Origin: Ruminococcus sp.
GTDB lineage: Bacteria; Bacillota; Clostridia; Oscillospirales; Acutalibacteraceae
Reading direction: 5' to 3'
Assembly: GCA_017404665.1 (NCBI GenBank)
Contig: JAFRBX010000021.1
Coordinates: 1-34,114, forward strand
Length of the DNA: 34,114 bases
The position numbers and the translations under genes are program-made. Below the pieces are notes generated by a model. The model was not told the origin of the DNA and ran no database searches. It worked only from the letters and a program-made list of their open reading frames with translations. Below are positions 10,111 to 32,056 of the stretch, piece by piece (position 1 is the first letter of the stretch; each line of letters starts with the position of its first letter).

Positions 10111-10266
10111 ATGAAAATGAAAAATTTATATGTATCCCCTGAGATCGAAATTGTCAGATATACCTTCAGGGACGTGATCCTGACCAGCCCCACCGAGGGC
10201 AGTATACCCGAGCAGGGCGGAGAATTTGATCCGGATAATCCCGGTTCGGAACTCCCCGAACTCTAA
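10111..10266 (+). CDS. short TS-motif peptide 1 (putative precursor peptide)
   Basis: A 51-aa peptide that begins 18 nt after the giant protein gene, with AGGAGG at 10101-10106. ATG 10111 and ATG 10117 are both possible; the second has the better spacing. Residues 7-27 form the block shared by all four peptides here: Tyr, then YxxPxI, then DVILTSP. The tail after TSP is rich in Gly, Pro, Asp and Glu and has no Cys. It has no signal peptide or membrane helix. The YxxPxI start resembles the RRE-bound leader motif of lasso precursors, and a PqqD-like protein is encoded nearby. I infer a leader-plus-core precursor recognised by that operon. Alternatively it could be a small co-factor of the upstream secreted protein. 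Confidence 0.78.
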   Translation: MKMKNLYVSPEIEIVRYTFRDVILTSPTEGSIPEQGGEFDPDNPGSELPEL

Positions 10267-10293
10267 ACGCTGTTACACAGATAAGTGAACGCA

Positions 10294-10325
10294 AATATGC
10301 CGCAGTGTAACAGCTGCGGCATATT
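10294..10325 (+). terminator. terminator-like hairpin after peptide 1
   Basis: A perfect 12-bp stem, AATATGCCGCAG (10294-10305) with CTGCGGCATATT (10314-10325), has an 8-nt loop. The downstream T-run is weak. A related CCGCAG/CTGCGG hairpin follows peptide 3, so the whole 3' region is duplicated together with the peptide gene. Confidence 0.75.
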
Positions 10326-10350
10326 ATGCTTTATAGTCATTGCAGCTCAA

Positions 10351-10394
10351 AGCCTCCCTTTCCTAAGGAAGGTGCCGCGAAGCGGCGGAGGGTT
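10351..10394 (+). repeat. single REP-like unit
   Basis: This is a diverged single copy of the 45-bp element found at the start of the window: CCTCCCTTTCCTAAGGAAGG, then a GCCGCGAAGCGGC hairpin, then GGAGGGTT. It is followed by a short TGTGGCAATCTC fragment that also occurs in the acn-icd spacer element. Confidence 0.8.
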
Positions 10395-10459
10395 GCGTTA
10401 GGCTGTGGCAATCTCAACCGATTATCGTTTGCTCGCATTATTGTGAAAGGATACCGCTT

Positions 10460-12079
10460 ATGAAACGAATACTATCGATTATACTGTCGATCCTGCTGAT
10501 TTTTGCTGTTTCTGCCGGCGCGTTTGCCGCTGACGTTGAAATCACCGAGACCGCCGACGGCGTCATCTTCATATTCGGAGACTGGGCATATCAGCCTGTC
10601 GGAAACTACGGTTATAAGATCAACGAATATCTCGGCAACGCGGCTGACGCCGAGCTGCCCTACAGCTTTGCGAAACAGTATGTCACCTCGATCGGCGACT
10701 ACGCCTTTTATGCGAATACCTCTCTGAATTCTGTGAAGCTCACTGAGTTCGTAGAGAAGATCGACGACTATGCCTTTAACGGCTGCTCTAATCTTGATAC
10801 GATTGCCTTCTATCCGTCGATCACCTCAATCGGCATGGGCTGCTTCTATGGATGCTCCGCTTTGACAAACGTCAATCTGGAGGATACCGCCGTGACCTAT
10901 GTTTCGGACTATTGCTTCGCGGACACCGGTCTCACCGACGTGACGCTGCCCGATACCTGTACCGCGATCGGACCGTACGCGTTCTATAACTGCGCTTCGC
11001 TGTCGAAGATCGTGATCCCCGCGTCTGTCACCGAGATCGCCGATAACGCGTTCCTGAACTGCTCCCAGCTGACGATCTGCTGCTACAGAGATTCCGCTGC
11101 ACATGCATATGCTGTGGAAAAGGGGATCCCGTATATCCTGATCGATGATATGGATTTAGAAATCTCTTTCCCCAGCCATTCGATCTCCCTCAACGGCGAT
11201 ATCGTCATCAACTACTATGTCGCTCTTCCGGACGAATATGTGACCTCCGGCAGAGCTGCTGTCGTGTTCTCATGGCTCGTTGACGGTCAGAAGAAGACGC
11301 GTACCGTCACCTTGACCCCGGACGACAAATACGATATCGGCTATAAGGCGTCATGTCCTGTAGCTGTCGCTGAAATGACCTACGACGTGACAGCATCCGT
11401 CATGATCGACGGCGTGCTGAAATGCCTGCCCGATAACTATTCTGTTCGCAGATATGCAAAGGAGATTTTGACCGACGCCGGATTCGCGGCAAGGTATACT
11501 GCCGCCGAGAACGATAGGGGAAACAACGGCGCCGAAAGGCTCGCTCAGCTTCGCACTCTCGTCAAGACGATGCTGGACTACGGCACAAAGGCGCAGATCC
11601 GCTTTGACCGCAACACCGGCAAGCTCGCGAACGGCGGTACGGATTACTTCACTTCAGATGAAACGATCCCGAGCAGAGCGGGCGATATGGATGCAGCCCT
11701 TTCCGAGTGCGGTCTGGAGTATGTCGGCACCTCGGTCGTCTACCTCTCACAGACCACGCTGCGTCATTATTATGCGATCGTCGATTCCTCCAAGTTTACA
11801 GCGGAGATCAAGAGCGGCGTCACCTTTGACGGCGAAGCTGTCGACTACGGCACCAGAGACGATCTGATCTACTTCGATAAGACGGATATCGCCGCGTCTA
11901 AGCTCGACACAGAGTATGTGCTGAGCATCAACGGACACGATTATCAGTATTCTGCATTGGATTATTCTGCGCTATCATACAGCTCAGACGAATCGCCCTA
12001 TGACACGAGTATTTCAAAACAGCTCGCGGCGGCGGTTTATCGCTACAACTCAGCCGCGAATGTTTATTTCAACGACTGA
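10460..12079 (+). CDS. secreted BspA-like leucine-rich repeat protein
   Basis: A 539-aa exported protein. The signal peptide spans residues 1-23 (AGAFA/AD), and GAAAGGA upstream is the ribosome binding site. Residues ~60-235 hold LRR_5/BspA-type repeats (IGDYAFYANTSL, IDDYAFNGCSNL, IGPYAFYNCASL, IADNAFLNCSQL). They end in the usual BspA capping sequence, CCYRDSAAHAYAVEKGIPY. Residues ~240-539 form a beta-rich C-terminal region without an assigned function. There is no LPXTG or dockerin. BspA-type repeats commonly mediate binding to host or matrix ligands; the ligand here is unknown. The stop codon is 13 nt from the next short peptide gene, so the two are very likely co-transcribed. Confidence 0.9.
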   Translation: MKRILSIILSILLIFAVSAGAFAADVEITETADGVIFIFGDWAYQPVGNYGYKINEYLGNAADAELPYSFAKQYVTSIGDYAFYANTSLNSVKLTEFVEKIDDYAFNGCSNLDTIAFYPSITSIGMGCFYGCSALTNVNLEDTAVTYVSDYCFADTGLTDVTLPDTCTAIGPYAFYNCASLSKIVIPASVTEIADNAFLNCSQLTICCYRDSAAHAYAVEKGIPYILIDDMDLEISFPSHSISLNGDIVINYYVALPDEYVTSGRAAVVFSWLVDGQKKTRTVTLTPDDKYDIGYKASCPVAVAEMTYDVTASVMIDGVLKCLPDNYSVRRYAKEILTDAGFAARYTAAENDRGNNGAERLAQLRTLVKTMLDYGTKAQIRFDRNTGKLANGGTDYFTSDETIPSRAGDMDAALSECGLEYVGTSVVYLSQTTLRHYYAIVDSSKFTAEIKSGVTFDGEAVDYGTRDDLIYFDKTDIAASKLDTEYVLSINGHDYQYSALDYSALSYSSDESPYDTSISKQLAAAVYRYNSAANVYFND

Positions 12080-12092
12080 GGAGGCTGCAGTG

Positions 12093-12239
12093 ATGAAAAA
12101 GGATAAATACGAACGCACCGCGCTGGAGATCACCGAGTTTTTGAGAGAAGACGTCATAGCGACCTCAGGAGACTCGGGACAGGAGTCGTCGAGACGGCTG
12201 CAAGAGTATGAGGATACCATTTTGAGATCAACCAGATGA
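12093..12239 (+). CDS. short TS-motif peptide 2 (putative precursor peptide)
   Basis: A 48-aa peptide starting 13 nt after the leucine-rich repeat gene. GAGGAGG overlapping that gene's stop region (12079-12085) serves as its ribosome binding site. Residues 6-26 fit the shared block (Tyr, LEI, Phe, then EDVIATSG). The tail is polar and charged (SGQESSRRLQEYED) with no Cys, unlike the acidic Gly/Pro tails of peptides 1 and 3. There is no signal peptide. A conserved N-terminal half with a divergent C-terminal half is typical of precursor peptides. A nearby in-frame ATG (12000) inside the upstream gene would give a longer product, but it lacks a good binding site. Confidence 0.78.
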   Translation: MKKDKYERTALEITEFLREDVIATSGDSGQESSRRLQEYEDTILRSTR

Positions 12240-12266
12240 TCAAACTATCATAAACACACATATTGC

Positions 12267-12310
12267 ACAGCCGACAGAGCTTTCTTTGAGAGAGTTCTGT
12301 CGGCTGTTTT
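12267..12310 (+). terminator. strong intrinsic terminator after peptide 2
   Basis: ACAGCCGACAGA (12267-12278) pairs perfectly with TCTGTCGGCTGT (12296-12307). Further pairing continues inside the loop, and a TTTTCTTT run follows. It closes the leucine-rich repeat/peptide 2 transcription unit. Confidence 0.92.
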
Positions 12311-12350
12311 CTTTGCCGAAAAAAATTAATCATTTTGTCCAGTTTTTCTA

Positions 12351-12379
12351 TTGATTTTTGTGAAAAACTCTTATATAAT
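12351..12379 (+). promoter_or_regulatory. sigma-A type promoter for the second giant protein
   Basis: TTGATT (12351-12356), a 17-nt spacer, then TATAAT (12374-12379). It lies between a terminator and the next gene. Predicted transcription starts near 12386, which leaves a leader of about 260 nt. Confidence 0.82.
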
Positions 12380-12385
12380 AAACTA

Positions 12386-12644: not shown

Positions 12645-15600
12645 ATGAAACATATGAAACTTACGCACATTCTCCGCGCTCTCACCGCAATGGTGTTAGC
12701 TTTGATTCTCATGCTCGGCACCGTGACCACGACCCTTGCAGCAGTGGTGGATGATAATGCTGAAACAGGAGCAGTTTCCTTTTCTGTCAAGAAAGGCATG
12801 ACCATCTATCTTGATATCACAAGGAACGTTAATAATGATGCGAATAATAATTTTTTAACAAACAGTCAAACGCCACGTTTTCGCTTCAACACGTCTGCAA
12901 GTGATACCGACGCTGTTGAATGTACTGTTGATAACGGTTTGGTGAAGCTGGCTAAGGACGGTAGCGGCTCTAATGTCGCAGGTCTCTACTATGCAGAAGT
13001 TCCCGCTGACGGCTATAACTATGTCAATGTCGACCGTTACAGCGGCGGATACAATGCTTCCGGTTGGAAACAAATCACCGGTGCACAGACAAATACACTG
13101 ATATTTAAAACAGACTGGAGTTATGATGGTCTGCAATTACCATATAATGACGGCTCCGGCAACAAATCCGGCGGTTACGGTCATATCTACTTTGATAACA
13201 CCACAACCAACTGGACGATCGACGCTACCAATAACCTGTATTTCGTCATCGGTCGTGATAATTATCAGGCGATGTATGAAATGAGTGCAGTCAATAACAC
13301 TGACCAACTGTATTACCTCGCCTCAAATACGAATTGGAATGACTACACCTTCTTTGGATTTGCCGTAGCAACATCCGCTCACACAGGCAGCTATGGTCCT
13401 AACGACAGCTCAAACGGCGTTTTGAATGTTGCATCTGCCTATACGACCTTTGCCAGTATGTATGAGCTTGCAGGTCAGAACAAATCTTTTCTCGGCACCG
13501 GTTTGAACAGCGGCAATGTATCTGCGCTGGATATCCTATGGATCAGTGATAATCAGGTCGGAAGTTCTTCCGGCTCTCATGAGAATGAGTATCTTAATCG
13601 CGGTCAGAAGCTGACCGTGACCGGTCGCGGCTCCGCAACTATCAGCGGCTATAAGGCGACGGCAGTCGGTTCCTCCGGCGTAACTGCACAGAGCGCGACC
13701 ACTGTCAGCAGTAACAGTGATTCTACTGTATACTACGCACGCAGCTCGACCGTGACCCTCAGCGGTATCACTCCGAACGCCGGATATGAACTGACTGGTT
13801 TGACCGTTAACGGCACAGATGTTCTCAGTGCATATAACAACGGCGGCGGCAGCTATACCTATACTGTCCCCGGCGGCGACGATAATGACAGCTCGGATAT
13901 TCCGGTAAACGTTACCTTCACCAAGACCGGTGCAACAGATGTATTCCTTTTGGGCCTATGGGAAACCGGAAAGGCAACAAAAACGGTATGGGAAGCTAAC
14001 AGCACCAATAACTCCGACAGATTGATGAACTATGCTTCTTCTTTGACTGTTGGTAATGAAACACTCACTAACGTCTATTATCTTGATATGGTGCTGACAG
14101 GGAATAAGACATATTCATCCTCGGAAAGTGAGACCGTTGATGGTACTGATATACAGAACGGCTTCAAAATCTATGATGCGGATCTCGACAATCCTTGGCT
14201 GAGCAATTCGGGTACCTATACATCCGGTCAGAGCTGGTGGAGCTTGTCCGATACATCCAACTGTGCACTTACAACGATCACACCTACAGGCAGCGCGACC
14301 TATCGCTTTGTATATGATCCCAACCATTCAATCGACAATACCACTAAGCCCTGCGTAAAGGTCTACTATCCCCAGATTGTTACTTATAACAATAACGAGT
14401 CTACCGCTGTTTCAGGTGGTACGACGAGCGCAGACACGACCTCTCAGCTGATCGTTACCTACGGCGGTACCGCTAAGAACATCACGCCCGTCCGTGATGG
14501 CTATGCTTTCGGCGGCTGGTATGATGACAGAGCCTGTACGACAGCGCATGACTTCACCGCGGCGGTTACCGGTGCTGTCACCGTATATGCGAAGTGGACG
14601 GTGAATACTGTCAACGTCAAGGTTCACGGTACCCAGAACGGCGTGGATATGAACGACGCTGTGACAAAGACCGTCAACGGTATCACGGGTACACAGATCA
14701 ATGCGAATGCTGCCGCTTCCGGCTATGTATTCCGCGGCTGGGTCGTTTCCGGCTCGATGGCGTCCCACATCAAGCTGTATACCGATTCCGCATGCACCAC
14801 TGTCTATACCGCGGGAACTGCTGTCAATCAGCTTTATGTTAAGACCGACGGCGCGAGCGGTATCACGGTCGACAACGCGATCATTACCGCTATCTATGTG
14901 ACCAATAATACGGTCAAGGTTGATGATGGTAAAACTGCCAAATCTACCGCTGAAGAATACTACACATCGATCAGCGGTAAAACGACCAATTCGCAGAACT
15001 TTGACTTTGGTTCGGCGATCACGGTCGCATTTGATGACCTGCCCGCCGGCTTCGGTATCGAGAGCGTGACCTTTGCCGACGGCGAAAGTGTTGAATATAC
15101 CAACTACGGTCACTATATCGCGTTCGATATGCCCGCGCATAATGTGACCATTACTGATATGACTGTCACACCCTTTACCTGTCGCATTACGGTCAAGAAC
15201 TCTGATACCATTGATATCGACGGATTATCGTCTTCCGGCTACTACTCCACCGGCGCTGACGTTCATACCATCACGATCAAAGGCTCCGATGACTACTACG
15301 GCACCAGCGTTCTGAATTCGCTGACCGTTAAGTATATCGGCGGTACCGCGATCACGGTCAGTTCATCAAACACTACCGCTTCCACTACTTTCGACGGCTC
15401 GACGCTGAACGTTGTTTATGATGATGCTACTCACACCGCCACCATCACCGGCCATATCGGCGGCAACGTTGTTTTGACGCCCGAGTGTTCGACCCAGTAT
15501 AACGTCAACATTACCTCTAAGGTCATGTCCGATGTCAGCTCGAAGTATATCACCTATAACAAGAAAACTACCACCGCCGACGGTACGGTTGAATCCGTTA

Positions 15601-18600
15601 CAGTTGCCGACCTGAAGGCGTATATCAAGCTCAACAGCGCTCCGGGCAGTAAAGAAGCCGCTGAAGCAGCAGATGTGAAATGGCCTCTTGAATCCACTAC
15701 CTACAACGGGAACACCTATTACCTGATCGAAGCTGACGAAGACGGCGACTATATCGGTAAGTTTGACGCCGACAGCAAGATCCTCTTAAAGACCGAGAAT
15801 CTCAACAGCAACTATACCTTTATCGGCTGGTTCGGCGGTTCCTCTACCGGTCCCGAGCTGACTGCGGCGAAGTCTACCAACGTTGCCTATGAGTACACGC
15901 TCGGCGAATCGTCCTTCCTCTACGGTGTTGTTACCCGCGATATCTATATCGGCGGTCAGGGTCCGTCCGGCAATTCCGGATTTAATGTGTCTTGGAGCAA
16001 TGCATCGAAGATGACCTATGACGAGAAGAATCAGGTCTACTATTATGAGACCGGTTCTCTTTGGAGCAGCGATAACAACGCAAATAATTATTATTTCAAG
16101 ATTTTCGATCAAGCTTCTACAGGCAACAGCAGCGATAGCGGTACTTCCAATCAGGCGGTATGGTATAACGCGGCTAAGACGATCGCCTATAACCAAGATT
16201 ATGGCGTCAGGTTGTCCGGACATACGTCTACGGGCACGAATGAAAAAGCGACTTTCCAGTTGTATCACAGTGACTCTGCCTATCAGAACATCGATTCCGA
16301 TAAGGTTCGTATCTACTACAAGCCTTCGTCTCAGGAAGTCTATATCATTCCGGTATTTAATAGTAACTATCATGAAGTATATCTCAGCAACGGTCGTATC
16401 GACGGTATGACAAAGCTGGGGCTGACGCTGACCACACCGACTCAGGCGTTCACGACGCCGTCCTCCGGCACCTCTACCGGCACAACTGTTAACAACGGTC
16501 AGACCGAGAACTATACCTATTATAAATTCACCAATTCTACGACGGTTGATTTTAAAGTTACGATCGACGGAACGAGTGCCTCAGATGTCAAGGTTGCAGG
16601 CTTTGTTGTTTACAATATGGATAGTGGTTCTGCCTCTACTGTTACAGCGACAAAGAGCGGCAATGTATACAGCGGTTCGGCGACGATCAGCGCCAATACC
16701 TTCATCTGTCCTGTTTATGAGCTGACGGATTCCTATATCAGCTCCAACAGCATCCAGGCGTTCGAAGTGTTCGTTAACGCAGCTGACGTTGACACCGCCG
16801 TATGGGGCGACCTCGTATCTATGTACGTATTCGGCGGTTCCGGTCAGGCGCGCGACTACAACGGCGCGTGGCCCGGTCAGCTGATGCTCCCCGAAGGCAA
16901 GACCTTCTCCGGAACCATCTATAAGAAGTCCGGCGAGGACCTCAGCGGTATCGTATTTGAGAACTACAACTCATACGGCAGCTTTTTCGGCAAGTTCGGC
17001 AAGCGCTTCAACTATCCCGACTGGGCGCAGACCTACGACTACCTCGAGCCCATCACCCTGATGGGCGACGGTTCGAATGCTGATACCACGATGCTCTCCT
17101 TCTCCTTAAAACAGAATAACGACGGTTATCGCGGCGAGTATTATACTTCGAGATCCAAGAAGCAGGGCCCCTACTACCTCGATGTTTACAACGAGGAGAA
17201 CAATGAAGCTAAACCCGGCGTCGTCTATTCCTATTATGATGAAGGACTCGGCGAGACCCAGACCCTTTTTGATAATTACACCTTCGAGTATCTGACCGAT
17301 AAGGACGGCAAGAACCGTCTGAACCTCTATGGCGATTCGGTCGGCTCCGCTTCGGCAGGCTACTATGTCATTTGCGTCGGCGACACCGACTATCTGAATA
17401 ATACCACACAAAACGGAAAAACCTATGATCCGGCGACATCCTACAACGGTGAATATTCGGTAGAGTGGTATGTTTATGATTCAGATGGTGTGTTCCTGCT
17501 GCATACCCTCTCCGATGCGCTGTACGGCAGAAATGACGCCAGCGAGAATTCCTATATCGTCGATAAGCTGCTCGCAAGCGGTCTGATCAAGAACCCGACG
17601 ACCCTGAAAGAAAAGTCTGTCAAGATTTCTTACGAAGCGCCTAACAAGCGTGATGACGCGACCCGCTTCTCCGGTCAGTGGTACGCGAACTCCACCAACG
17701 AAAAGGTTACGGTTTATGCCGGCGTCGGCATGATCACAGACGGCGGCATGGTGATCGTCCCCGAGAACCCTCAGAGCAGCGCGAGCTACGGCTCCGCCGC
17801 GATCAGCTTCACTTCGGCTGCGGTCACGAACGGCGCGACACAGGGTACGGTAACCGGTCTGAACTGGGGTTCCCTGACGCTTTCCGACGCCTCCAAGGGC
17901 TCTACCACACTGACTGCGACCATCCCGTCGACCAGTACCTTCAAGGGTTGGTACAGCTACAACGAGACGACCGATTCTTACACCAAGGTCAGCGACGGTA
18001 CTGCAAGCGGTACGACAAATACCTACAGCCCGAAGTTCGGTACTGAATCCCGCTTCTTTGCGATGTTCTCCGCACAGGCGACCTACTACTTCACCTATCC
18101 CGGCAGAAAAGGCACCGTGACATATTCCGTTAAAGCGTCGCTTGACCCAAAGTCAGGCGAGATGTCCAGCGGCGGCTATTTGGATCTGACCGACAGCGAT
18201 AGAGTTGCAGACATCCAAGCGCAGCTAACTAACCTGAACAAGATCCACGTGTTTAACCATAACGTCACGTTTAATTTGAACGAAACTGCCAATATGGATA
18301 ATTCCAGCCCTTATGAGATCACGGTGGAGGGAACCTCACAAGAAGCAACATATGCTCTGACAGTATACAGCTATAACAGTCAAGGTACGCTGGAACTGAA
18401 AGGAACCGTAACCGGCACATTCAGCACAGAACTGAATGTCACGACACACGCAAGCCTCGGTAACGGCACTCCTTTGACGGAAAATAAGCCTTCTGACAAA
18501 CCTAACGGTGTGTTCCTCGGATGGAAGAAGTATGTACCCGGCTCGGGCGGCGGCGTTACCGGCGACTACCTCTCCACACAGGCTAATTTCGGCTACAGTA

Positions 18601-19199
18601 TCTGCGAAAATCTCACGATCGCTCCTGTATTCGGTACAGCAGCAGAGCGGACAGCGATTGTCAGCGGTGGTACTTGGCGGGCAGGCATCGACAAAAACGT
18701 CGTTACGCAGGAGCTGACGAACGCCAGCACCGGTACGATCTATTGCGATACTCTCGCTAACTTCCGCAATACCGGCGCCACCGGCACACGGTTCGATACT
18801 TCTACTAATGAATGCGGTGTTGTTTACTTCTTCCAGACAGCTGAAGCAACAGCCAACTCCACAGCGTCAACTGCTTTTGGTAACATTAGCGAGGAGACGC
18901 TCCAAGGCTTAGTCAGCACGATGTCGAGTAGAGATTTGGGAACAGCTAAATTGAAAGAATCAACTTATAACTGCGGTGAAGCCTATGCCTATCGTGTGAA
19001 AGCGACGGAGCTTTCAGCCTTGAACCGTGCCGACTTCGTTTTGAACGCTGGCTACGGCAAATTCGTCGGCGCAAACTACAAGGTCATCGCCTACACCAAG
19101 ATCGTCAGCGGCGAAAACGTTGCATACACCTACAGCACGATCGTATCCAACACCTTCACACATGGACAAAAATTCCCTGTACTGTCTAACACACCTTGA
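12645..19199 (+). CDS. giant secreted multi-repeat protein, paralogue of the first
   Basis: I choose ATG 12645, which has GGAGG at 12631-12635 and yields a proper signal peptide (MKHMKL start, LILMLGTVTTTLAA). An upstream in-frame start at 12537 would put a charged extension before the signal and lies in the leader. The product is 2184 aa. It contains an N-terminal beta-rich region, an InlB/Flg_new repeat near residues 590-660 (GYAFGGWYD, VYAKWT), divergent InlB repeats and a WPG segment near 1382-1415 that resembles CBM26-type starch-binding modules. A ~170-residue C-terminal domain beginning WRAGIDKNVVTQELTNA matches the first giant. From about residue 1100 onward the order of segments parallels the other giant. 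There is no sorting motif. It is likely a surface or secreted binding protein with an unknown ligand. Confidence 0.9.
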   Translation: MKHMKLTHILRALTAMVLALILMLGTVTTTLAAVVDDNAETGAVSFSVKKGMTIYLDITRNVNNDANNNFLTNSQTPRFRFNTSASDTDAVECTVDNGLVKLAKDGSGSNVAGLYYAEVPADGYNYVNVDRYSGGYNASGWKQITGAQTNTLIFKTDWSYDGLQLPYNDGSGNKSGGYGHIYFDNTTTNWTIDATNNLYFVIGRDNYQAMYEMSAVNNTDQLYYLASNTNWNDYTFFGFAVATSAHTGSYGPNDSSNGVLNVASAYTTFASMYELAGQNKSFLGTGLNSGNVSALDILWISDNQVGSSSGSHENEYLNRGQKLTVTGRGSATISGYKATAVGSSGVTAQSATTVSSNSDSTVYYARSSTVTLSGITPNAGYELTGLTVNGTDVLSAYNNGGGSYTYTVPGGDDNDSSDIPVNVTFTKTGATDVFLLGLWETGKATKTVWEANSTNNSDRLMNYASSLTVGNETLTNVYYLDMVLTGNKTYSSSESETVDGTDIQNGFKIYDADLDNPWLSNSGTYTSGQSWWSLSDTSNCALTTITPTGSATYRFVYDPNHSIDNTTKPCVKVYYPQIVTYNNNESTAVSGGTTSADTTSQLIVTYGGTAKNITPVRDGYAFGGWYDDRACTTAHDFTAAVTGAVTVYAKWTVNTVNVKVHGTQNGVDMNDAVTKTVNGITGTQINANAAASGYVFRGWVVSGSMASHIKLYTDSACTTVYTAGTAVNQLYVKTDGASGITVDNAIITAIYVTNNTVKVDDGKTAKSTAEEYYTSISGKTTNSQNFDFGSAITVAFDDLPAGFGIESVTFADGESVEYTNYGHYIAFDMPAHNVTITDMTVTPFTCRITVKNSDTIDIDGLSSSGYYSTGADVHTITIKGSDDYYGTSVLNSLTVKYIGGTAITVSSSNTTASTTFDGSTLNVVYDDATHTATITGHIGGNVVLTPECSTQYNVNITSKVMSDVSSKYITYNKKTTTADGTVESVTVADLKAYIKLNSAPGSKEAAEAADVKWPLESTTYNGNTYYLIEADEDGDYIGKFDADSKILLKTENLNSNYTFIGWFGGSSTGPELTAAKSTNVAYEYTLGESSFLYGVVTRDIYIGGQGPSGNSGFNVSWSNASKMTYDEKNQVYYYETGSLWSSDNNANNYYFKIFDQASTGNSSDSGTSNQAVWYNAAKTIAYNQDYGVRLSGHTSTGTNEKATFQLYHSDSAYQNIDSDKVRIYYKPSSQEVYIIPVFNSNYHEVYLSNGRIDGMTKLGLTLTTPTQAFTTPSSGTSTGTTVNNGQTENYTYYKFTNSTTVDFKVTIDGTSASDVKVAGFVVYNMDSGSASTVTATKSGNVYSGSATISANTFICPVYELTDSYISSNSIQAFEVFVNAADVDTAVWGDLVSMYVFGGSGQARDYNGAWPGQLMLPEGKTFSGTIYKKSGEDLSGIVFENYNSYGSFFGKFGKRFNYPDWAQTYDYLEPITLMGDGSNADTTMLSFSLKQNNDGYRGEYYTSRSKKQGPYYLDVYNEENNEAKPGVVYSYYDEGLGETQTLFDNYTFEYLTDKDGKNRLNLYGDSVGSASAGYYVICVGDTDYLNNTTQNGKTYDPATSYNGEYSVEWYVYDSDGVFLLHTLSDALYGRNDASENSYIVDKLLASGLIKNPTTLKEKSVKISYEAPNKRDDATRFSGQWYANSTNEKVTVYAGVGMITDGGMVIVPENPQSSASYGSAAISFTSAAVTNGATQGTVTGLNWGSLTLSDASKGSTTLTATIPSTSTFKGWYSYNETTDSYTKVSDGTASGTTNTYSPKFGTESRFFAMFSAQATYYFTYPGRKGTVTYSVKASLDPKSGEMSSGGYLDLTDSDRVADIQAQLTNLNKIHVFNHNVTFNLNETANMDNSSPYEITVEGTSQEATYALTVYSYNSQGTLELKGTVTGTFSTELNVTTHASLGNGTPLTENKPSDKPNGVFLGWKKYVPGSGGGVTGDYLSTQANFGYSICENLTIAPVFGTAAERTAIVSGGTWRAGIDKNVVTQELTNASTGTIYCDTLANFRNTGATGTRFDTSTNECGVVYFFQTAEATANSTASTAFGNISEETLQGLVSTMSSRDLGTAKLKESTYNCGEAYAYRVKATELSALNRADFVLNAGYGKFVGANYKVIAYTKIVSGENVAYTYSTIVSNTFTHGQKFPVLSNTP

Positions 19200-19217: not shown

Positions 19218-19376
19218 ATGAAAATGAAAAATGATTATGTATCCCCTGAGATTGAGATCGTAAGGTACACCTTCAGAGACGTGATTCTGACCAGCCCCAC
19301 CGAGGGCAGTATACCCGAGCAGGGCGGAGAATTTGATCCCGATAATCCTGATTTGCCTGTGCTCCCCGATCTTTAA
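19218..19376 (+). CDS. short TS-motif peptide 3, near-duplicate of peptide 1
   Basis: A 52-aa peptide 18 nt after the second giant gene, the same spacing as peptide 1, with AGGAGG just upstream. ATG 19218 and ATG 19224 are both possible. It shares YVSPEIEIVRYTFRDVILTS and the following TEGSIPEQGGEFDPDNP with peptide 1 and differs at residue 6 and in the last few residues. A 53-nt stretch (19287-19339) is identical at DNA level to 10180-10232, while the leader-coding part has several synonymous changes. It is the peptide closest to the PqqD/peptidase/ABC operon, whose promoter begins about 125 nt downstream. It has no Cys and no signal peptide. Confidence 0.8.
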   Translation: MKMKNDYVSPEIEIVRYTFRDVILTSPTEGSIPEQGGEFDPDNPDLPVLPDL

Positions 19377-19549: not shown

Positions 19550-19813
19550 ATGAAGATAAAAAGTAATTTTATTCTGAAAAAGATAGCCGGCACTTATATG
19601 GTGGTTCCGATTCGTACCAGAGCGGTGGATTTTTCAGGTGTCATCAAGCTCTCCGAGAGCGGAGCGTTTCTTTGGAGCTTACTCGAAAAGGACGCTGAAA
19701 GAGACGACCTGATCGCGAGAATGCTCGAAGAATATGACGTGGATGAAGCGACAGCCGCAGCGGATATCGATCGGTTTATAGCTAAGCTCAGAGAGGCTGA
19801 TTTGCTTGAGTGA
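19550..19813 (+). CDS. PqqD-family peptide-binding protein (RRE-like)
   Basis: An 87-aa product from ATG 19550. In-frame TTG and GTG codons just upstream lie at or before the predicted transcription start, so they are unlikely starts. The family signature is clear: an N-terminal beta region (FILKKIAGTYMVVPI), then LSESGAFLWSLLEKDAERDDLIARML, then EEYDVDEATAAADIDRFIAKLREADLL. This is the classic PqqD pattern of a Trp-Xn helix, an acidic DVD segment and a final leucine-rich helix. PqqD-like proteins bind leader peptides and present them to modifying or cleaving enzymes. First gene of a five-gene operon, it overlaps the peptidase gene by 8 nt. I infer that its partners are the YxxPxI/DVIxTS peptides encoded upstream. 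Confidence 0.9.
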   Translation: MKIKSNFILKKIAGTYMVVPIRTRAVDFSGVIKLSESGAFLWSLLEKDAERDDLIARMLEEYDVDEATAAADIDRFIAKLREADLLE

Positions 19814-20267
19814 GTTCATTTCTCCCGATGATTTTGTCGCGGTGATGCATGAGAGCTTTGAGAGAGGTCAGGATTTGATATTCACTCCCTCCGGCAGCAG
19901 CATGCTCCCGATGCTCGACGGAAAAACAGATAAGGTGACATTTTCTCCCAAAGTGGATAAGCTGAAAAAATATGACGTCGCGTTTTATGTGCGCCGTAAA
20001 ACAAATCAGCTCGTATTGCACCGTGTGATCGGTTTTACGAAGAGCGGAGACTATATTTTTTGCGGCGACAACCAGTATTCTTATGAATACGATATATCGG
20101 ATGAAGATGTGTTGGCGCTGATGACCTCTTTTACGCATCAAGGAAAAACATATCGGACGGATGCTTTGTCCTATCGCGTTTACATCCGTTTGATGATGAT
20201 AAAAAAACACTTTCGCCGTTTCTCCGGAAAAGTGTATCATCGGATCACTGATCCGTTAAATCAATAA
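19806..20267 (+). CDS. S24/S26-type (SipW-like, Ser/His) peptidase
   Basis: A 153-aa product starting at TTG 19806, with GAGAGG at 19791-19796, overlapping the PqqD gene. Visible motifs are PSGSSMLPML with candidate nucleophile Ser32 (S-M-x-P), LVLHRVIGF with His72, and a CGDN box near residue 86. All three are typical of S26 signal peptidases. The general-base position is His, as in SipW/eukaryotic-type enzymes, rather than the Lys of classical type I enzymes. No clear N-terminal membrane anchor is present, so it may be cytosolic or depend on a partner. In this operon it is the best candidate for cleaving the short peptides, perhaps at the conserved TS. That role is inference. Confidence 0.85.
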   Translation: MSEFISPDDFVAVMHESFERGQDLIFTPSGSSMLPMLDGKTDKVTFSPKVDKLKKYDVAFYVRRKTNQLVLHRVIGFTKSGDYIFCGDNQYSYEYDISDEDVLALMTSFTHQGKTYRTDALSYRVYIRLMMIKKHFRRFSGKVYHRITDPLNQ

Positions 20268-20330: not shown

Positions 20331-21002
20331 ATGGCTTTGTACCGAATTTCTGACTTGAATGTTGAGATCAAAACACATTCACCTTCGCTTGCCGATAACA
20401 TCAAGCGTTATGAGGTGACCTATCAGGCTGACCCAAACGTCACTCTTGAGATGAGCGACGATCGGCTGCTCGAAATGATGGAGGAGTATGAGGGGATGAC
20501 CGCCGACGCGGTAGAATCCCTCTTCATGGCGACTCTCTATTCGTGGGCTATTTTCGATTTCAACGGCTTTCCCATCCGTGCGGTCGGTGTAGAGAACGAC
20601 GGCGAATGTACGTTATTTGCTGCGCCCGAAGACCCTACGGTGGATCTGATCACGGGGCTCCCGCAAAGCAAGGCGTTTGTCTACCGGTATCCCGGCATCC
20701 GTATGCAGGATGACGACTACTATGTATTCGATACCCCCTTCGGCGAATACGGTCATCTATCCGTAACCGGCAAAAAGCTGAAGCTCAAATCGATTGTTTT
20801 TGTCGATCGGCAGCGTTTTGATTCGCTAAGAGCGATCGAGGCAAAGGATTTTGTACCGCTGTTCATGCGCGCGGTATCGCAGAATGTCCGTCAGGAGCGC
20901 ACCAAGCATACGCTGTTCATCTTAGAGCGCGTGATGCACCGCGTGAAGTTTTTCGGCGTCGGCGATATCAATGATCTTGATTTCATTTTAGAGAGAGTTT
21001 AA
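20331..21002 (+). CDS. HPr-kinase-like protein lacking a canonical P-loop
   Basis: A 223-aa protein whose middle resembles HprK-like proteins of peptide clusters. It has a hydrophobic GFPIRAVGVENDGECTLFAAP strand-turn at the place of the usual pre-P-loop strand, then DDDYYVFDTPFGEYG and LKLKSIVFVDR, matching the DD-x-TPW-x-G and LKAIVFL features of that family. The expected GxSGxGKST is replaced by PEDPTVDLI (about residues 99-107), so ATP binding is doubtful. HprK-like enzymes phosphorylate some lasso peptides; this copy may be a pseudoenzyme acting as a scaffold or binding factor. It lies between the peptidase and ABC genes with a GGAG binding site. The family assignment rests on pattern similarity and needs structural confirmation. 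Confidence 0.62.
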   Translation: MALYRISDLNVEIKTHSPSLADNIKRYEVTYQADPNVTLEMSDDRLLEMMEEYEGMTADAVESLFMATLYSWAIFDFNGFPIRAVGVENDGECTLFAAPEDPTVDLITGLPQSKAFVYRYPGIRMQDDDYYVFDTPFGEYGHLSVTGKKLKLKSIVFVDRQRFDSLRAIEAKDFVPLFMRAVSQNVRQERTKHTLFILERVMHRVKFFGVGDINDLDFILERV

Positions 21003-21019: not shown

Positions 21020-22708
21020 GTGTCCAAACATCAAAAAGGAGCCTTGAGCTGGATCGTAAACAGCTCAAGGCCTCAGTTGATCAACATCATCATATTAGCG
21101 GTCGTTTACGGGGTCAACGCGTTTATCGGGGTGTACAACACCGTCTATGCGCGCGATCTGGTAGATGCTGCCGTCAGGGGCGTAAGCGGCGGTTCTTTCA
21201 GCGAAGTGATCCGCTATGGCTCGCTGTATCTGGGCGTAACGGTCGTGCAGATTGTTACGCTGATTTTGGCGCGCAACTACGGCTTCAAGGTCAGTGCGCG
21301 GCTTGATATGGCCATCAAGTCCAAGCTCTTCTACTCGATGATGACGAAGGAATATGCCGATATCTCAGCCTATCATTCGGGTGAACTGATGAACCGTCTG
21401 ACCAATGACGTCGGCGTGGTGACCTCGGCAATTGTTTCCATTATCCCGAGTTTAGTATTCTTTATTGTAAAGATCATCGGCATCTTTTATGTGCTGGTGC
21501 GGATCGATATGATTTTCGCGCTGGTTTTTGTGGTCGGCGGCGCTCTGGTGTTTGTCGTGTCTACGCTATTCAAGCCAATGACCAAACGTTTGCATAAGGA
21601 TGTACAGGCAAAGGAGGGCAAGGTCCGTTCGTTTATGCAGGAGGGCTTGGGCTCGCTGCTGATGATCAAGACCTTCGGCGCGCAGGAAAAGATGCAGGCT
21701 TCGGCGTATGAACTGCAGGAGGACTGCTACCGCGCCCAGCGCAAGCGCAATATCTTTTCGATCGTTACCGGCACCGGTATGACGGCGCTGTTTTCCTTTG
21801 CGTATGTATGGGGGCTCGGCTGGGGCGCTTATATGCTGTTTTACGGCGCGATCTCCTACGGCGTGCTCATGCAGATCACCTCGCTGATCGGTCAGATCCG
21901 AACGCCGATCCAGGGGATGGCGAACATTTTCCCGACTTATTTCAACGCGCTGGCGTCTGCGGAGAGAATTCTGGAAATCGAGAACATGCCTGCTGAGCAG
22001 GAGCTGCACAGCAACGTCGATACAGATGAATTGTACCGTGATATGGACGCGATTTGTTTTGACGATATCAGCTTCGCATTCGACCGCGATATTATTCTCG
22101 AAAACACTTCTTTGACGATCAAAAAAGGGGAGTTCGTGGCAATCGAGGGTATTTCCGGCATCGGCAAATCGACCTTGATGAAGCTGCTGCTCAGCGTGTA
22201 TCAGCCGAAGAAGGGCAGGATCTATCTGCGTACCCCGAAGGAGGAATATAACGTCGATAAAAGCCTGCGAAAGCTATTTGCGTATGTACCGCAAGGCAAT
22301 TTCCTGCTTTCCGGTACGCTGAGGGAGAACATCGCCTTTGTTGCACCCGACGCAACTCAGGACGATATCCTGAACGCGGCGCGGATCGCCTGTGCCGAGG
22401 AGTTCATCAAGGAGCTCCCGCAGGGGCTGGATACCGTGATCGCGGAGCATGGGGGAGGGCTGAGCGAAGGGCAGGTGCAGCGTGTCGCGATTGCGCGCGC
22501 GCTGTTGACCAAATCGCCGGTCATCCTGCTCGATGAAGCGACCTCCGCGCTGGATGAAGCAACAGAAAAACAGCTGCTTCATAACCTGCGTGAGCTTCAG
22601 GACAAGACCTGCGTCATCATTACGCACAAAAAAGCCGCCTTGGCGATATGCGACAAGACGGTAACGATAGCGGACAAGAAAATCATGATCAACGGTGATA
22701 TCGGATGA
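21020..22708 (+). CDS. ABC transporter, fused permease and ATPase (peptide exporter type)
   Basis: A 562-aa half-transporter starting at GTG 21020 with GGAGG at 21010-21014. Residues ~15-320 form a six-helix ABC exporter membrane domain, and ~345-560 the ATPase. The nucleotide-binding site is complete: Walker A GISGIGKST (377-385), Q-loop Gln425, signature LSEGQ (481-485), Walker B VILLDE (501-506) and H-loop His536. There is no N-terminal C39 peptidase domain, consistent with cleavage by a separate enzyme such as the S26-type protein two genes upstream. It would act as a homodimer in the cytoplasmic membrane. The substrate is inferred to be the short TS-motif peptides or their processed cores, but this is not shown by sequence alone. 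Confidence 0.93.
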   Translation: MSKHQKGALSWIVNSSRPQLINIIILAVVYGVNAFIGVYNTVYARDLVDAAVRGVSGGSFSEVIRYGSLYLGVTVVQIVTLILARNYGFKVSARLDMAIKSKLFYSMMTKEYADISAYHSGELMNRLTNDVGVVTSAIVSIIPSLVFFIVKIIGIFYVLVRIDMIFALVFVVGGALVFVVSTLFKPMTKRLHKDVQAKEGKVRSFMQEGLGSLLMIKTFGAQEKMQASAYELQEDCYRAQRKRNIFSIVTGTGMTALFSFAYVWGLGWGAYMLFYGAISYGVLMQITSLIGQIRTPIQGMANIFPTYFNALASAERILEIENMPAEQELHSNVDTDELYRDMDAICFDDISFAFDRDIILENTSLTIKKGEFVAIEGISGIGKSTLMKLLLSVYQPKKGRIYLRTPKEEYNVDKSLRKLFAYVPQGNFLLSGTLRENIAFVAPDATQDDILNAARIACAEEFIKELPQGLDTVIAEHGGGLSEGQVQRVAIARALLTKSPVILLDEATSALDEATEKQLLHNLRELQDKTCVIITHKKAALAICDKTVTIADKKIMINGDIG

Positions 22709-23514
22709 TGAGCTTGAATTATCCGATTTTGATGGTTCACGGTATGGGATACCGTGACGGCAAATGCATCGGCTATTGGGGCAGGATCCCAAAGGCGCTG
22801 GAGAATGAAGGCTGTCGGGTATTTTTCGGGAATCAGGACAGCAACGGTACGATCGAGAGCAACGGAGCGTTTTTGGCCGATCGGATTCGTGAGATCCTTC
22901 GGCAAAGCGACGCTGAGAAGCTGAACGTTATCGCCCATTCCAAAGGCGGCTTGGATATGCGCTATGCGATTTCCTCGCTGGGAATGGACAAATATATCGC
23001 TTCGCTGTCGACGATCAGCACGCCGCACAACGGCTCGTACACGATGGATAAGATCATGAAGCTGCCACGATTTGCTGTCAGATTTATAGCCGCCTGCTCC
23101 AATCTGAATCTGCGGATATTCGGGGATAAGCATCCCGACGCTTACCGTGTGTTTGAGTCCTTTACCACCGGTCACGCGGAACGCTTTAATCAGCAGAATC
23201 CCGATTCACCGGACGTTTACTATCAAAGCTACGCGTTTACCTTCTCTACGCCATTCAGCGATATGATCGAGTGGTTTCCTCATTTTGTGGTGAAATGCAT
23301 TGAGGGAGAGAACGACGGATTGCTGACGCCGCGAGCGGTCGCGTGGGGCAACTTCAGAGGCGTATATACCGGTGCGACTCACCGCGGAATCTCGCATGTG
23401 GATGAGATCGATCTGCGGCGCAGGGCATTGACCAAAAAGCGCGGAGACGGTATCTCCGATATCGTCGATTTTTATCTCGAATTGGTTCGGGAATTACAAG
23501 AAAAAGGTTTTTAA
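22705..23514 (+). CDS. alpha/beta-hydrolase, lipase-like
   Basis: A 269-aa protein overlapping the ABC gene by 4 nt (ATGA), which indicates translational coupling. Lipase family marks are the oxyanion segment MVHGMGY (10-16), the nucleophile elbow AHSKGG with Ser79, the acid region GENDGLLTP with Asp204, and His231 in GISHVDEID. STISTPHNG (102-110) is typical of bacterial triacylglycerol lipases and related esterases. There is no signal peptide, so it is intracellular or exported by other means. It is the last gene of the operon before a strong hairpin. Its part in peptide maturation is unclear; it could hydrolyse an ester or act on a lipid. Confidence 0.85.
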   Translation: MMSLNYPILMVHGMGYRDGKCIGYWGRIPKALENEGCRVFFGNQDSNGTIESNGAFLADRIREILRQSDAEKLNVIAHSKGGLDMRYAISSLGMDKYIASLSTISTPHNGSYTMDKIMKLPRFAVRFIAACSNLNLRIFGDKHPDAYRVFESFTTGHAERFNQQNPDSPDVYYQSYAFTFSTPFSDMIEWFPHFVVKCIEGENDGLLTPRAVAWGNFRGVYTGATHRGISHVDEIDLRRRALTKKRGDGISDIVDFYLELVRELQEKGF

Positions 23515-25573: not shown

Positions 25574-25580
25574 TCATTTT

Positions 25581-27586: not shown

Positions 27587-27587
27587 A

Positions 27588-27845: not shown

Positions 27846-27919
27846 ATAGGTTGTAAAATAAGGAAGTGTGCGCTTGTACATTTAAAAGCAAGCGTTGATG
27901 AAAAAACCAAGGTGATTGT

Positions 27920-29787: not shown

Positions 29788-29793
29788 GTATAA

Positions 29794-30687
29794 ATGGTAA
29801 ACTATATGGAATACATCATCCTCGATCTGGAATTCAACGGTACCTATTCGAAGCACCGTCACAAATTTGTGAACGAGATCATCGAATTCGGCGCTGTGAA
29901 ATGCGACGAACAAATGAATATCATCGATACCTTCTCGGAATTGATCGCGCCGCAGATCGCCAAAAAGCTCAATCCGCATGTGACCGCGCTGACGCATATC
30001 ACACTGGACGAGCTCAAGGAAAGCCGCAACACTTTCTCAAAGGTCGTATCTAAGTTCCGTAAGTTTCTGGGGGATGGGGTGCTGCTGACATGGAGCAACA
30101 GTGATATTTTAGTTCTAATGGAGAATTATCACTACTTTTTCGGCAACGATAAGCTATCCTTCCTAAAGTATTATGTGAACCTGCAAAAGTACTGTGAGAG
30201 AGCGCTCGGCTACAGCGACAAAGCACATCAGCTCGGTCTGTCCGCCTGCGCGGAAACGCTGGGGATCACCTTTGAGGACGACAGCCTGCACCGCGCCTAT
30301 AACGACGCGGAGCTCAGCGCCCTGTGCTTCAAGGCGCTGTATGATTCTGAGCTGTTGAAACAATATCTGTATGTCTGCGACAATGATTTCTATCGCCGCG
30401 TGACCTTCAAGAACTACAACATCTGTGATCTGAAGGATCCCGGCATCGATAAGCGGGAGATGTACTTCAACTGTGAGGTCTGCGGCAGGCGCGCCCTGCG
30501 CCGTTCCAAATGGCGGCTGAAGAACCGTTCCTTCCGCGCGAACTTCCGCTGCCTGCGCTGTCATAAGGATTTTGAGGGACGCATCACCTTCAAGCAGTGC
30601 TACGATCATGTGAGCGTTACGAAGAAGATTGCCGAGCTGCCCCCGAAAAAGCCCAATCACACCGAACAGCATGGTAATGAACAGTAA
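29794..30687 (+). CDS. DEDDh 3'-5' exonuclease with C-terminal zinc ribbon
   Basis: A 297-aa protein. The exonuclease fold spans residues ~6-190 with Exo I Asp11/Glu13 (LDLEFN), Exo II Asp104 (WSNSDILVL) and Exo III His166/Asp171 (HRAYNDAEL). This is the full DnaQ/RNase T-like DEDDh set. Residues 227-256 carry two Cys pairs (C227/C230 and C253/C256), forming a likely zinc ribbon rich in Arg/Lys that would bind nucleic acid. The start is ATG 29794 or ATG 29806; neither has a clear Shine-Dalgarno because a hairpin occupies that position. The substrate (DNA or RNA) cannot be decided. It probably shares a transcript with typA. Confidence 0.85.
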   Translation: MVNYMEYIILDLEFNGTYSKHRHKFVNEIIEFGAVKCDEQMNIIDTFSELIAPQIAKKLNPHVTALTHITLDELKESRNTFSKVVSKFRKFLGDGVLLTWSNSDILVLMENYHYFFGNDKLSFLKYYVNLQKYCERALGYSDKAHQLGLSACAETLGITFEDDSLHRAYNDAELSALCFKALYDSELLKQYLYVCDNDFYRRVTFKNYNICDLKDPGIDKREMYFNCEVCGRRALRRSKWRLKNRSFRANFRCLRCHKDFEGRITFKQCYDHVSVTKKIAELPPKKPNHTEQHGNEQ

Positions 30688-30730
30688 ATGCTTGTCTGTT
30701 AGAAAAAACAAGATCGGCTAGGTTACAGAC

Positions 30731-30776
30731 TTCCTCCGGAATGATCATCAGGATTATTCCGGGGGAGGTTCTATTT
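30731..30776 (+). terminator. intrinsic terminator after the exonuclease gene
   Basis: CCTCCGGAAT (30733-30742) pairs with ATTCC (30756-30760) and GGAGG (30764-30768), with a three-G bulge. CTATTTTA follows. Confidence 0.8.
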
Positions 30777-30816
30777 TACGGTTTTACTGCTTCTACTGTT
30801 GAGCAAAACTTTTTTG

Positions 30817-30845
30817 TTGACTTTATTGCTTTTGTATAGTAGAAT
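30817..30845 (+). promoter_or_regulatory. promoter of the lipoprotein/dockerin/peptide 4 unit
   Basis: TTGACT (30817-30822), a 17-nt spacer, then TAGAAT (30840-30845). Transcription near 30852 leaves a leader of about 175 nt. It contains AACTC/GAGTT (near 30853-30867) and TGCTTTG/CAAAGCA hairpins. No riboswitch class is recognised. Confidence 0.8.
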
Positions 30846-31027
30846 AAACATAACTCTATATGAGTTGAAGTGTGCTTTGTGACAGTGCTGTTATTCAAAG
30901 CATACGCGGAGTATATAAATACTTCGTTCAGGCTCCGGAAGTGAAGCGTGTTTTGTTTTGATACTGCTTGCTGTTTAGCTTGACAATAGTATTTCAAACT
31001 GTGGTTTTTCGGTCAAGGTGAAAGAAT

Positions 31028-31486
31028 TTGTCTAAGATGAAAATATTATTCGCCATATTGCTTGTTGCTTTCGCTTTGTGCCTGTCAGCTTGCGGAAATA
31101 ATAAAGATTCGGCTGCAGCGTCTTCAAAAGACAGTGTGAAACAGCTGGTCGCTTCTCAGATACAGGAAACATCCCCCTCTGCCGATGCACCTGAAAACGG
31201 CGCCGACGTTGATGTCCCGTCAGAGAGCAGCGTCGATAAGGGGCGGCAGTCAGTCGTTAGCGACAGTGCGGGAGAGCAAGAAAACGATCCTGTCGACTCC
31301 GGCACCCCGTTGAGAGAGCGCGCTTCTTCACAAAAAAGCGCTGATTCCGGGTTGCAAAACAGCGGTAACGCCGCAAGCCGAAGCGGTGACAGTCAGACTT
31401 ATGAACAGGAAGCCGCCTCATCTGCGGCAGTTCCCCAAGGTCCCGGGGAGATCGATAACGCTGAGGTAAATATCAATGACCTTTAG
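31028..31486 (+). CDS. Ser-rich lipoprotein of unknown function
   Basis: A 152-aa product from TTG 31028, spaced 7 nt from AAGGTG; ATG 31037 is an alternative. A signal peptide ends in a lipobox, LSAC, with Cys22 as the lipidated residue. The remainder is low-complexity, rich in Ser, Ala, Asp, Glu and Gln, and looks unfolded, like a wall-spanning linker. No domain is recognised. Its 3' end overlaps the dockerin gene by 11 nt, so the two products are probably made together. Confidence 0.78.
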   Translation: MSKMKILFAILLVAFALCLSACGNNKDSAAASSKDSVKQLVASQIQETSPSADAPENGADVDVPSESSVDKGRQSVVSDSAGEQENDPVDSGTPLRERASSQKSADSGLQNSGNAASRSGDSQTYEQEAASSAAVPQGPGEIDNAEVNINDL

Positions 31487-31841
31487 ACTGTGCAAAATAA
31501 TCCCGGCGCTGCTGTGTGCCGCCGTGCTGTTCTCGGTCTGCTCTGTATGCGCCGCCGCTGGAAATCTGCCCGGTGACGCCGATGGGGACGGATCGGTCAC
31601 GTTGACCGACGCGACCTGCGTCCAAAGAAAGCTTGCGGGGCTGCGTACGGACGGCAGCTTTTCCGAAACGGTAGCAGACGTCGACGGTAACGGCTTGGTC
31701 GAGATCGCGGATGCTACCTTGATTCAACGGTGGCTGGCGGGGATGGAACCGCCTTATCCGATTGGGCCGCAGCCCACACAGGCGCCCACCCAGATGCCGA
31801 CGGATGAAGAAGGATGGGGGACTATCATTTTTCGCCCATGA
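31476..31841 (+). CDS. small secreted dockerin protein
   Basis: A 121-aa protein with a signal peptide (MTFRLCKII start, cleavage near CAAA/G at 28-29). A type I dockerin follows almost at once. Calcium loop 1 is D34-A-D36-G-D38-G with D45, and loop 2 is D68-V-D70-G-N72-G with D79. The helices are ATCVQRKLAGL and ATLIQRWLAGM. The C-terminal ~30 residues are Pro/Thr/Gln-rich. No catalytic or binding domain is attached, so the dockerin is essentially the whole protein. Dockerins bind cohesins of cellulosome-like complexes; no cohesin is visible in this window. Confidence 0.88.
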   Translation: MTFRLCKIIPALLCAAVLFSVCSVCAAAGNLPGDADGDGSVTLTDATCVQRKLAGLRTDGSFSETVADVDGNGLVEIADATLIQRWLAGMEPPYPIGPQPTQAPTQMPTDEEGWGTIIFRP

Positions 31842-31882
31842 CACGGTCGGCGAACAATCATAGAATTTTAGGAGGATGTCAG

Positions 31883-32056
31883 ATGAAATCTTTATATGAA
31901 CGCACAAGCTTAGTGATAACTGCGTTTGAAACGGATGATGTAATCGTGACATCCGGTGAAACGAGCCATGAGACGCTGAAAATGGAAAGAGAGAACGCTT
32001 ACGGATCTTTCGGCAGTTTTCAGAGTCCGCAAAATGCACCGGGCAGCTGGTTCTGA
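31883..32056 (+). CDS. short TS-motif peptide 4 (putative precursor peptide)
   Basis: A 57-aa peptide with GGAGG at 31871-31875 before ATG 31883. A longer in-frame start at 31814 would overlap the dockerin gene and lacks such a site. Residues 5-25 fit the shared block (Tyr, LVI, Phe, DDVIVTSG). The tail differs from the other three: GETSHETLKMEREN, then GSFGSFQSPQNAPGSWF, an aromatic Gly/Ser-rich end. No Cys, no signal peptide. As with the other copies, it lies directly downstream of an exported protein gene (41 nt). This copy is more than 8 kb from the PqqD/ABC operon, so any shared machinery would act in trans. Confidence 0.76.
   Translation: MKSLYERTSLVITAFETDDVIVTSGETSHETLKMERENAYGSFGSFQSPQNAPGSWF

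Follow-up and report, generated by a model that had tools for sequence, protein, structure and literature searches.

Four short peptide genes in a 34,114-nucleotide stretch of a Ruminococcus sp. genome (assembly GCA_017404665.1, contig JAFRBX010000021.1; the whole stretch is called the window below) belong to a family of peptides with a conserved leader block and a variable tail. The members mostly follow genes of longer surface-type proteins, and they occur in genomes that also encode a particular PqqD subfamily. The window genome is in the genus of R. bromii (Ruminococcus_E), as judged from the peptide match in R. bromii ATCC 27255 (G580), which coincides in contig position with that in G032, a genome of the window's genus. 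The reading that we prefer, with moderate confidence, is that these peptides are precursors that are read in trans by PqqD, cut by an S26-type peptidase and exported, and that they act with the co-expressed surface protein. The window peptides are:

10111..10266, + strand: peptide 1, 51 amino acids (aa); leader block, then an acidic Pro/Gly tail
12093..12239, + strand: peptide 2, 48 aa; leader in the YERT form, tail charged
19218..19376, + strand: peptide 3, 52 aa; near-copy of peptide 1
31883..32056, + strand: peptide 4, 57 aa; tail ending in PGSWF, similar tails recurring in the family (by eye)

The peptide family and its partner genes

The four open reading frames (ORFs) described in the initial annotation were recovered with the same starts and ends, and they align without gaps over the block given there. 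All of them are free of cysteine, and two carry the YxxP motif, the remaining two having YERT. The claim that the tails diverge completely does not stand: peptides 1 and 3 both carry TEGSIPEQGGEFDPDNP, and the difference is confined to their last 7-8 residues (13 synonymous and 7 non-synonymous changes between the two genes). Each peptide is preceded by an AGGAGG-like match (6/6 bases) and starts 13-41 nt past the stop codon of a longer ORF.

The window's own genome (2.47 Mb, 79 contigs) contains further copies. A single-sequence search with peptide 1 returned the query, peptide 3 and, elsewhere than on the window contig, two more copies (E 8.2e-6 and 0.0035). With a six-row profile, 13 copies were found at E <= 1.2e-4, seven of them outside the model, together with one doubtful match (E 0.086). 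An enlarged profile gave 13 copies at E <= 1e-3, spread across nine contigs. Thus the shared block is more than a chance resemblance of four peptides, and the family is real and larger than first noted. Peptides 1-3 have no family match in Pfam or NCBIfam; Pfam rows for peptide 4 at E 0.11 and 0.29 were regarded as chance. No description of the family was found in those parts of the literature that the search reached.

Altogether 124 peptides were collected, and 120 of them (E <= 1e-3, shorter than 90 aa) were used below, 113 with 460 nt of upstream sequence. The leader spans about 20 residues with the consensus Y-x-x-[P/T]-E-[L/I]-E-[I/V]..F...D-V-I-x-[T/A]-S. Among the 120 members, the conserved positions are occupied as follows: Y 113; after two residues, P 68 or T 23; E 67; L/I (position +5) 86; E 67; I/V 99; after two more, F/L/Y 114; after three, D 109; V/I 105; I/L 104; and after one, T/A 92 and S 100. 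Glycine follows this serine in 44 members. The tails, in which Gly, Asp, Glu and Pro are abundant, have a median length of 21 residues and a mean charge of -3.8; six contain cysteine. By eye, they fall into recurring classes. Acidic YEDDE tails stand mainly behind proteins of the leucine-rich-repeat (LRR) type, ENxYG..PGSWF tails mainly near dockerin genes, and ELP[FVI][IV]P is one of several further classes. In two relatives (L036, 1381-1575; L217, 4185-4355) the tail contains the unit YEGWNP twice, as in a precursor with two cores.

The peptides have the features of translated genes. A Shine-Dalgarno match of five or six bases precedes 95 of the 120 members. The ratio of non-synonymous to synonymous changes (pN/pS), computed for 32 pairs of 68-99.5% identity that overlap and are not independent, is 0.18 in the leader and 0.39 in the tail; therefore both halves are under purifying selection.

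Position behind a longer gene is a systematic property of the family. For each of the 13 copies in the window's genome, an ORF that is 121 aa or longer ends not more than 50 nt upstream. These ORFs encode large InlB-type or LRR proteins, small dockerin proteins (two cases) and other long products. Requiring an upstream ORF of at least 150 aa with its stop -5 to 70 nt from the peptide, we found coupling in 82 of 113 copies, against 26 of 293 control ORFs from the same loci that also have Shine-Dalgarno boxes. The median gap in the 82 coupled copies is 14.5 nt. When scored with a simple rule based on hydrophobicity, 40 of the 44 partners that are complete begin with a signal-like stretch, compared with 104 of 215 other long genes. 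The initial annotation took the conserved and variable halves as the usual layout of ribosomally made precursors. The association with PqqD genes given below speaks for this; however, most copies are placed behind surface-type genes and not in a biosynthetic cluster. In the window the partners and their neighbours are:

508..10092, + strand: large surface-type protein, 3194 aa, partner of peptide 1; InlB-type and Big_2 repeats (Pfam Flg_new_2, Big_2, Flg_new), signal-like N-terminus by eye
10460..12079, + strand: BspA-type LRR protein, 539 aa, partner of peptide 2; Pfam LRR_5 4.8e-37, signal-like start
12645..19199, + strand: large surface-type protein, partner of peptide 3; 2184 aa from ATG 12645, GTG 12537 giving a longer start; Pfam Flg_new 1.1e-11
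31028..31486, + strand: small gene for a lipoprotein-like product, preceding the dockerin gene that accompanies peptide 4; no Pfam match
31476..31841, + strand: dockerin-only protein, 121 aa, partner of peptide 4; Pfam Dockerin_1 4e-9
32251..32958, + strand: membrane-type protein after peptide 4; no Pfam match

A homologue of the lipoprotein-like gene (36% identity, E 1e-12) occupies the same place beside another peptide of this genome (L086), and a gene that by eye resembles the membrane-type one follows that unit (L086, 5335-5964). At the start of the window (2-276) a 45-base unit is repeated in tandem (6.1 copies, 94% matches); a lone related copy lies at about 10340-10400, in the gap that separates peptide 1 from the gene after it (by eye). 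In another genome (G012, contig 20, 34355-40504; L213) three equally scoring peptide matches are spaced about 3 kb apart, which suggests recent tandem duplication of the unit.

Some peptide tails share their C-terminus with longer proteins. Of the 5488 ORFs in the loci, 25 have a loose ELP[FVI][IV]-type C-terminus, compared with 4.2 after shuffling; these are eight peptides, 11 longer ORFs of peptide loci (five with dockerin) and six others. The coding pattern of ELPFIP occurs at eight sites in four genomes, which were picked as known carriers, and not at all in the reversed control. Seven sites end genes: one peptide, four dockerin and two lipoprotein-like genes. The eighth is in frame directly past the stop codon of a dockerin gene: in contig 10 of the window's genome (L361, 3984-6851) a 955-aa dockerin protein is followed by its stop, then by in-frame ELPFIPA and a second stop. 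The window peptides lack exact ELPFIP; peptide 1 ends with SELPEL and peptide 3 with LPVLPDL.

Association with PqqD and S26-type peptidase genes

An order-level sample of 247 genomes was searched for the peptide and for the PqqD subfamily. The peptide was found in 53 genomes and PqqD in 77; 51 have both, two the peptide only, 26 PqqD only and 168 neither. The co-occurrence test proposed in the initial annotation is thus positive (PqqD in 51 of 53 genomes with the peptide vs 26 of 194 others; p 9e-31, uncorrected for phylogeny), and the peptide is not widespread in genomes lacking PqqD. The association persists inside the window's family (9/9 vs 6/20, p 5e-4), and PqqD is present in all 38 peptide-bearing genera. 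In a first set of 59 relatives, 16 pairs of peptide and PqqD genes less than 3 kb apart were observed, with 0.84 expected if genomes of 2.0 Mb are assumed.

In a phylum-level sample, two of 299 genomes matched at E <= 1e-3, the window's own and G053. In R. bromii ATCC 27255 a single peptide stands between a surface protein and an LRR-dockerin protein, and an HPr-kinase-like protein comes after the latter; a word search of the accessible part of PMC5814915 did not show this locus. Among ten genomes searched, there are 12 peptides in strain P7 (Ruminococcaceae bacterium) and five in Lachnoclostridium MSJ-17, and in three, including Ruminococcus sp. FMBCY1, no peptide was found.

In the window, peptide 3 is followed by a candidate processing operon:

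19550..19813, + strand: PqqD-family protein of the RRE type (recognition element of ribosomally synthesized and post-translationally modified peptides, RiPPs), 87 aa; Pfam PqqD 2.5e-18 (PF05402, 66.6 bits vs a cut-off of 23.4)
19806..20267, + strand: S26-type peptidase, no membrane helix evident at its N-terminus; no Pfam match, NCBIfam signal peptidase I 1.1e-5, below cut-off
20331..21002, + strand: HPr-kinase-like protein lacking Walker A; assigned through alignments with relatives, itself unmatched in Pfam and NCBIfam
21020..22708, + strand: ABC exporter, 562 aa; Pfam ABC_membrane and ABC_tran
22705..23514, + strand: lipase-like protein whose gene overlaps that of the exporter; a single weak lipase match in NCBIfam

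The PqqD protein is a discrete RRE of the B1 type. It scores below cut-off with the NCBIfam lasso PqqD models (33 bits vs 70 and 80), and the best solved relatives of the subfamily profile in PDB are the lasso proteins TbiB1 (1.3e-10) and TfuB1 (2.7e-7). The best PDB profile match of the peptidase is signal peptidase I (4nv4, E 0.0014). In S26 proteins the serine lies in the GxSMxP motif, the histidine in HR and the aspartate in GDN; here these residues, Ser32, His72 and Asp88, are invariant in all 33 aligned sequences.

For the HPr-kinase-like profile, PDB returned nothing meaningful. The GxGKS-type motif is present in eight of 16 aligned proteins, including that of R. bromii ATCC 27255 with intact GVGKS, and is missing from the window protein and seven homologues 66-88% identical to it. 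Walker A is missing from the proteins of L088 and L091 as well. The window protein is well conserved among near relatives despite this loss, as in a retained pseudo-kinase. The lipase-like gene was not found behind the ABC gene in two relatives (L088, L091) and is thus probably accessory. Family scans of the operon proteins recognised no modifying enzyme.

The genome has two further small PqqD genes. On contig 41 the order is peptide, PqqD, S26 fused to NTP_transf_5, membrane-type protein, dockerin protein, lipoprotein-like protein. On contig 55, PqqD is accompanied by S26 and a dockerin protein, and no peptide was found there.

In relatives, the PqqD subfamily was found by a pattern scan mostly in Ruminococcus, Ruminococcaceae, Clostridiales and Clostridia records, among them three R. 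bromii strains. The best 80 of 211 relatives were considered; as contig ends cut some loci, the neighbour counts are lower bounds. Within 600 nt of PqqD, S26 genes occur in 73 loci, HPr-kinase-like genes in 15 and NTP_transf genes in 19; anywhere in the retrieved loci the numbers are 73, 16 and 25. Two of the seven loci without S26 are at contig ends. In R. bromii ATCC 27255 (L281, 5899-9958) PqqD, S26 and NTP_transf directly follow groES- and groEL-looking genes, and no peptide gene was found in this 16-kb locus. In G003 (L093, 7121-11739) the peptide, HPr-kinase-like, PqqD, S26, NTP_transf_5 and radical SAM genes stand together, and a second family peptide with three cysteines, a possible modified member, lies on the opposite strand. 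The exclusion of thioether classes, drawn from the cysteine-free window peptides, hence does not extend to the whole family.

Candidate processing route and known systems

The association suggests the following candidate route. The peptides would be co-made with individual surface-type or dockerin proteins as precursors, and their first 20 or so residues would be a lasso-type recognition leader bound by free-standing PqqD. PqqD would pass them to the neighbouring soluble S26-type Ser/His peptidase, which would stand in for the lasso B2 protease and may cut the leader off close to the conserved D-V-I-x-T-S. After that, the tail would leave the cell, via the ABC exporter where one is encoded, and would act at the surface with its co-expressed protein. 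A few PqqD-peptidase loci, three of them in the window's genome, could serve all scattered peptides in trans. Leader recognition by PqqD is supported by genomics. We infer binding and removal of the leader because the best solved PqqD relatives are lasso B1 proteins, the leader resembles those of lasso peptides, and S26 takes the place of the protease, once with a nucleotidyltransferase fusion.

Signal peptidases follow a small-residue rule at the cut site and disfavour proline at +1. A candidate cut after the serine at position +19, which follows T/A, would fit the former rule. Lasso leaders carry threonine at the penultimate position. By lasso spacing, as far as it can be taken from the available part of PMC10368454 (Tyr at -17), the T/A-S pair sits three residues later than expected; a candidate cut after D-V-I would then make the conserved serine core residue 3. 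The same part describes phosphorylation of core residue 3 in the Bradymonas lasso pathway. However, phosphorylation by the linked kinase-like protein cannot be the sole role of this serine, since the window peptides keep it while that protein lacks Walker A.

The closest parallels are the lasso pathways with discrete B1 (paeninodin, pseudomycoidin, Bradymonas bsf type), which, in the parts of PMC8498205 and PMC10368454 at hand, likewise have a free-standing PqqD-like RRE, and have a YxxPx[L/I] leader that the block described here resembles. Leaders of similar form are given for ruminal lasso peptides, for instance MTYNKPSFEKISSFKESTM (PMC7533575, in part), and the motif is common to other RiPP classes too (PMC12710340, in part). 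Some lasso clusters include genes for an HPr kinase and for a nucleotidyltransferase, which in certain cases is fused to B2 (PMC8498205, same part); HPr-kinase homologues, nucleotidyltransferases and ABC exporters occur in relatives studied here, and the peptidase-nucleotidyltransferase fusion on contig 41 parallels the B2 fusion. On the other hand, S26 replaces the transglutaminase-like B2 protease (PF13471), for which no match was found in the window's genome; the kinase motif is lost in the window lineage; and there are 13 scattered substrates, each after a longer gene. No Asn-synthetase-like cyclase was recognised among the scanned operon proteins, no genome search having been aimed at one. 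Thus a lasso product is not indicated, and lasso membership is not claimed.

Other systems share single features. The prochlorosins, in which one enzyme set serves many scattered precursors with a conserved leader and a variable tail, differ in that the precursors here are operon partners of surface-type proteins and the window peptides lack cysteine. The kinase-like proteins of two relatives match ScmC of the SynChlorMet cassette weakly (2.1e-6 and 2.2e-5; 27 and 24 bits vs a cut-off of 125); one relative has just a generic radical SAM match. As in the R. bromii amylosome and cellulosome-type assemblies, dockerin and large surface proteins are involved, being co-encoded with the peptides; the peptides themselves contain neither cohesin nor dockerin.

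Alternative explanations and significance

Several observations weigh against the proposed route. The peptide was not found at the threshold in 26 of the 77 genomes with PqqD; in two of these 26, G438 and G515, lower-scoring members lie roughly 1 kb away from PqqD. Two peptide genomes (G425, G460) have no PqqD match; the G460 row lies within a 348-aa frame, no peptide was recovered from the retrieved stretch (L187), and it is probably spurious. PF13471 scores over the cut-off in nine of the 247 genomes, and two of these (G043, G578) bear peptides. Under the coupling rule 31 of 113 copies are uncoupled. A peptide is near PqqD in five of the 80 named loci and in four of 40 full-length ones; this is expected if the machinery serves scattered substrates, and it still limits the argument from linkage. 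ABC genes occur in 27 of the 80 loci, nine of them within 600 nt, so export by a linked ABC protein is not general. Proline directly follows TS in two of the four window peptides, and thus the cut may lie elsewhere. Finally, among 88 peptides, those with similar tails tend to have similar partners (partial correlation 0.128, p 5e-4), but the same holds for similar leaders (0.135). As the tail tracks the partner no better than the leader does, joint inheritance alone may suffice, and co-evolution of tail and partner is not claimed.

One alternative is that the peptides are never cut and are small cytosolic partners which, jointly with PqqD, chaperone or regulate the co-translated surface protein. 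The close spacing, the lack of a Sec-type signal visible by eye and the frequent lack of a linked exporter agree with this, whereas the usual neighbour of PqqD is peptidase-like with a complete Ser/His/Asp set, and a T/A-S pair is conserved after the binding block; we regard the possibility as doubtful. It is also unlikely that the peptides are ordinary RiPP natural products, such as bacteriocin or signal precursors, standing behind surface genes by accident. The leader and tail layout, the duplicated tail units in L036 and L217, and the set of PqqD, HPr-kinase-like, NTP_transf_5 and ABC genes, with radical SAM in one relative, would suit such products. However, the placement is systematic relative to the control ORFs, 13 copies are dispersed over nine contigs, and the window operon has no recognised modifying enzyme, nor was B2 found in the genome.

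Still less probable is the suggestion that the tails are docking or attachment tags, bound or joined to a surface assembly after export, with the same kind of tag on co-encoded dockerin and lipoprotein-like proteins. It would explain the excess of ELPFIP patterns over the reversed control and of loose motifs over shuffled ORFs. But most peptides, all four window ones included, lack exact ELPFIP, one dockerin gene has a stop ahead of it, neither a ligase nor a receptor was identified, and the four genomes were chosen as already known carriers. That the ORFs are untranslated, being chance or attenuator frames behind surface genes, is hardly credible: they are short and without a database family match, but pN/pS is well below 1 in both halves, most members have a Shine-Dalgarno match of five or six bases and the family recurs in 38 genera.

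A broader and rather speculative possibility, which we hold at low confidence, is that a lasso-type machinery without a cyclase is a house-keeping route giving each surface protein a short co-expressed peptide, and that some of the peptide ends share an ELPFIP-type docking motif with dockerin and lipoprotein-like proteins.

If the preferred reading, PqqD-guided processing of peptides that act with surface proteins, is correct, the thirteen or more tiny genes of this genome would be an unrecognised family of processed surface-associated peptides. Leader recognition in the RiPP style would then be a genome-wide route with many substrates, tied to expression of surface proteins and not to a secondary metabolite. 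Bacteria of the gut and the rumen would use it, among them R. bromii, a keystone species for starch. Some PqqD loci called lasso-like in genome mining may be something else, and the common pair of PqqD and S26-type peptidase genes would acquire a role that can be tested in cultured strains.

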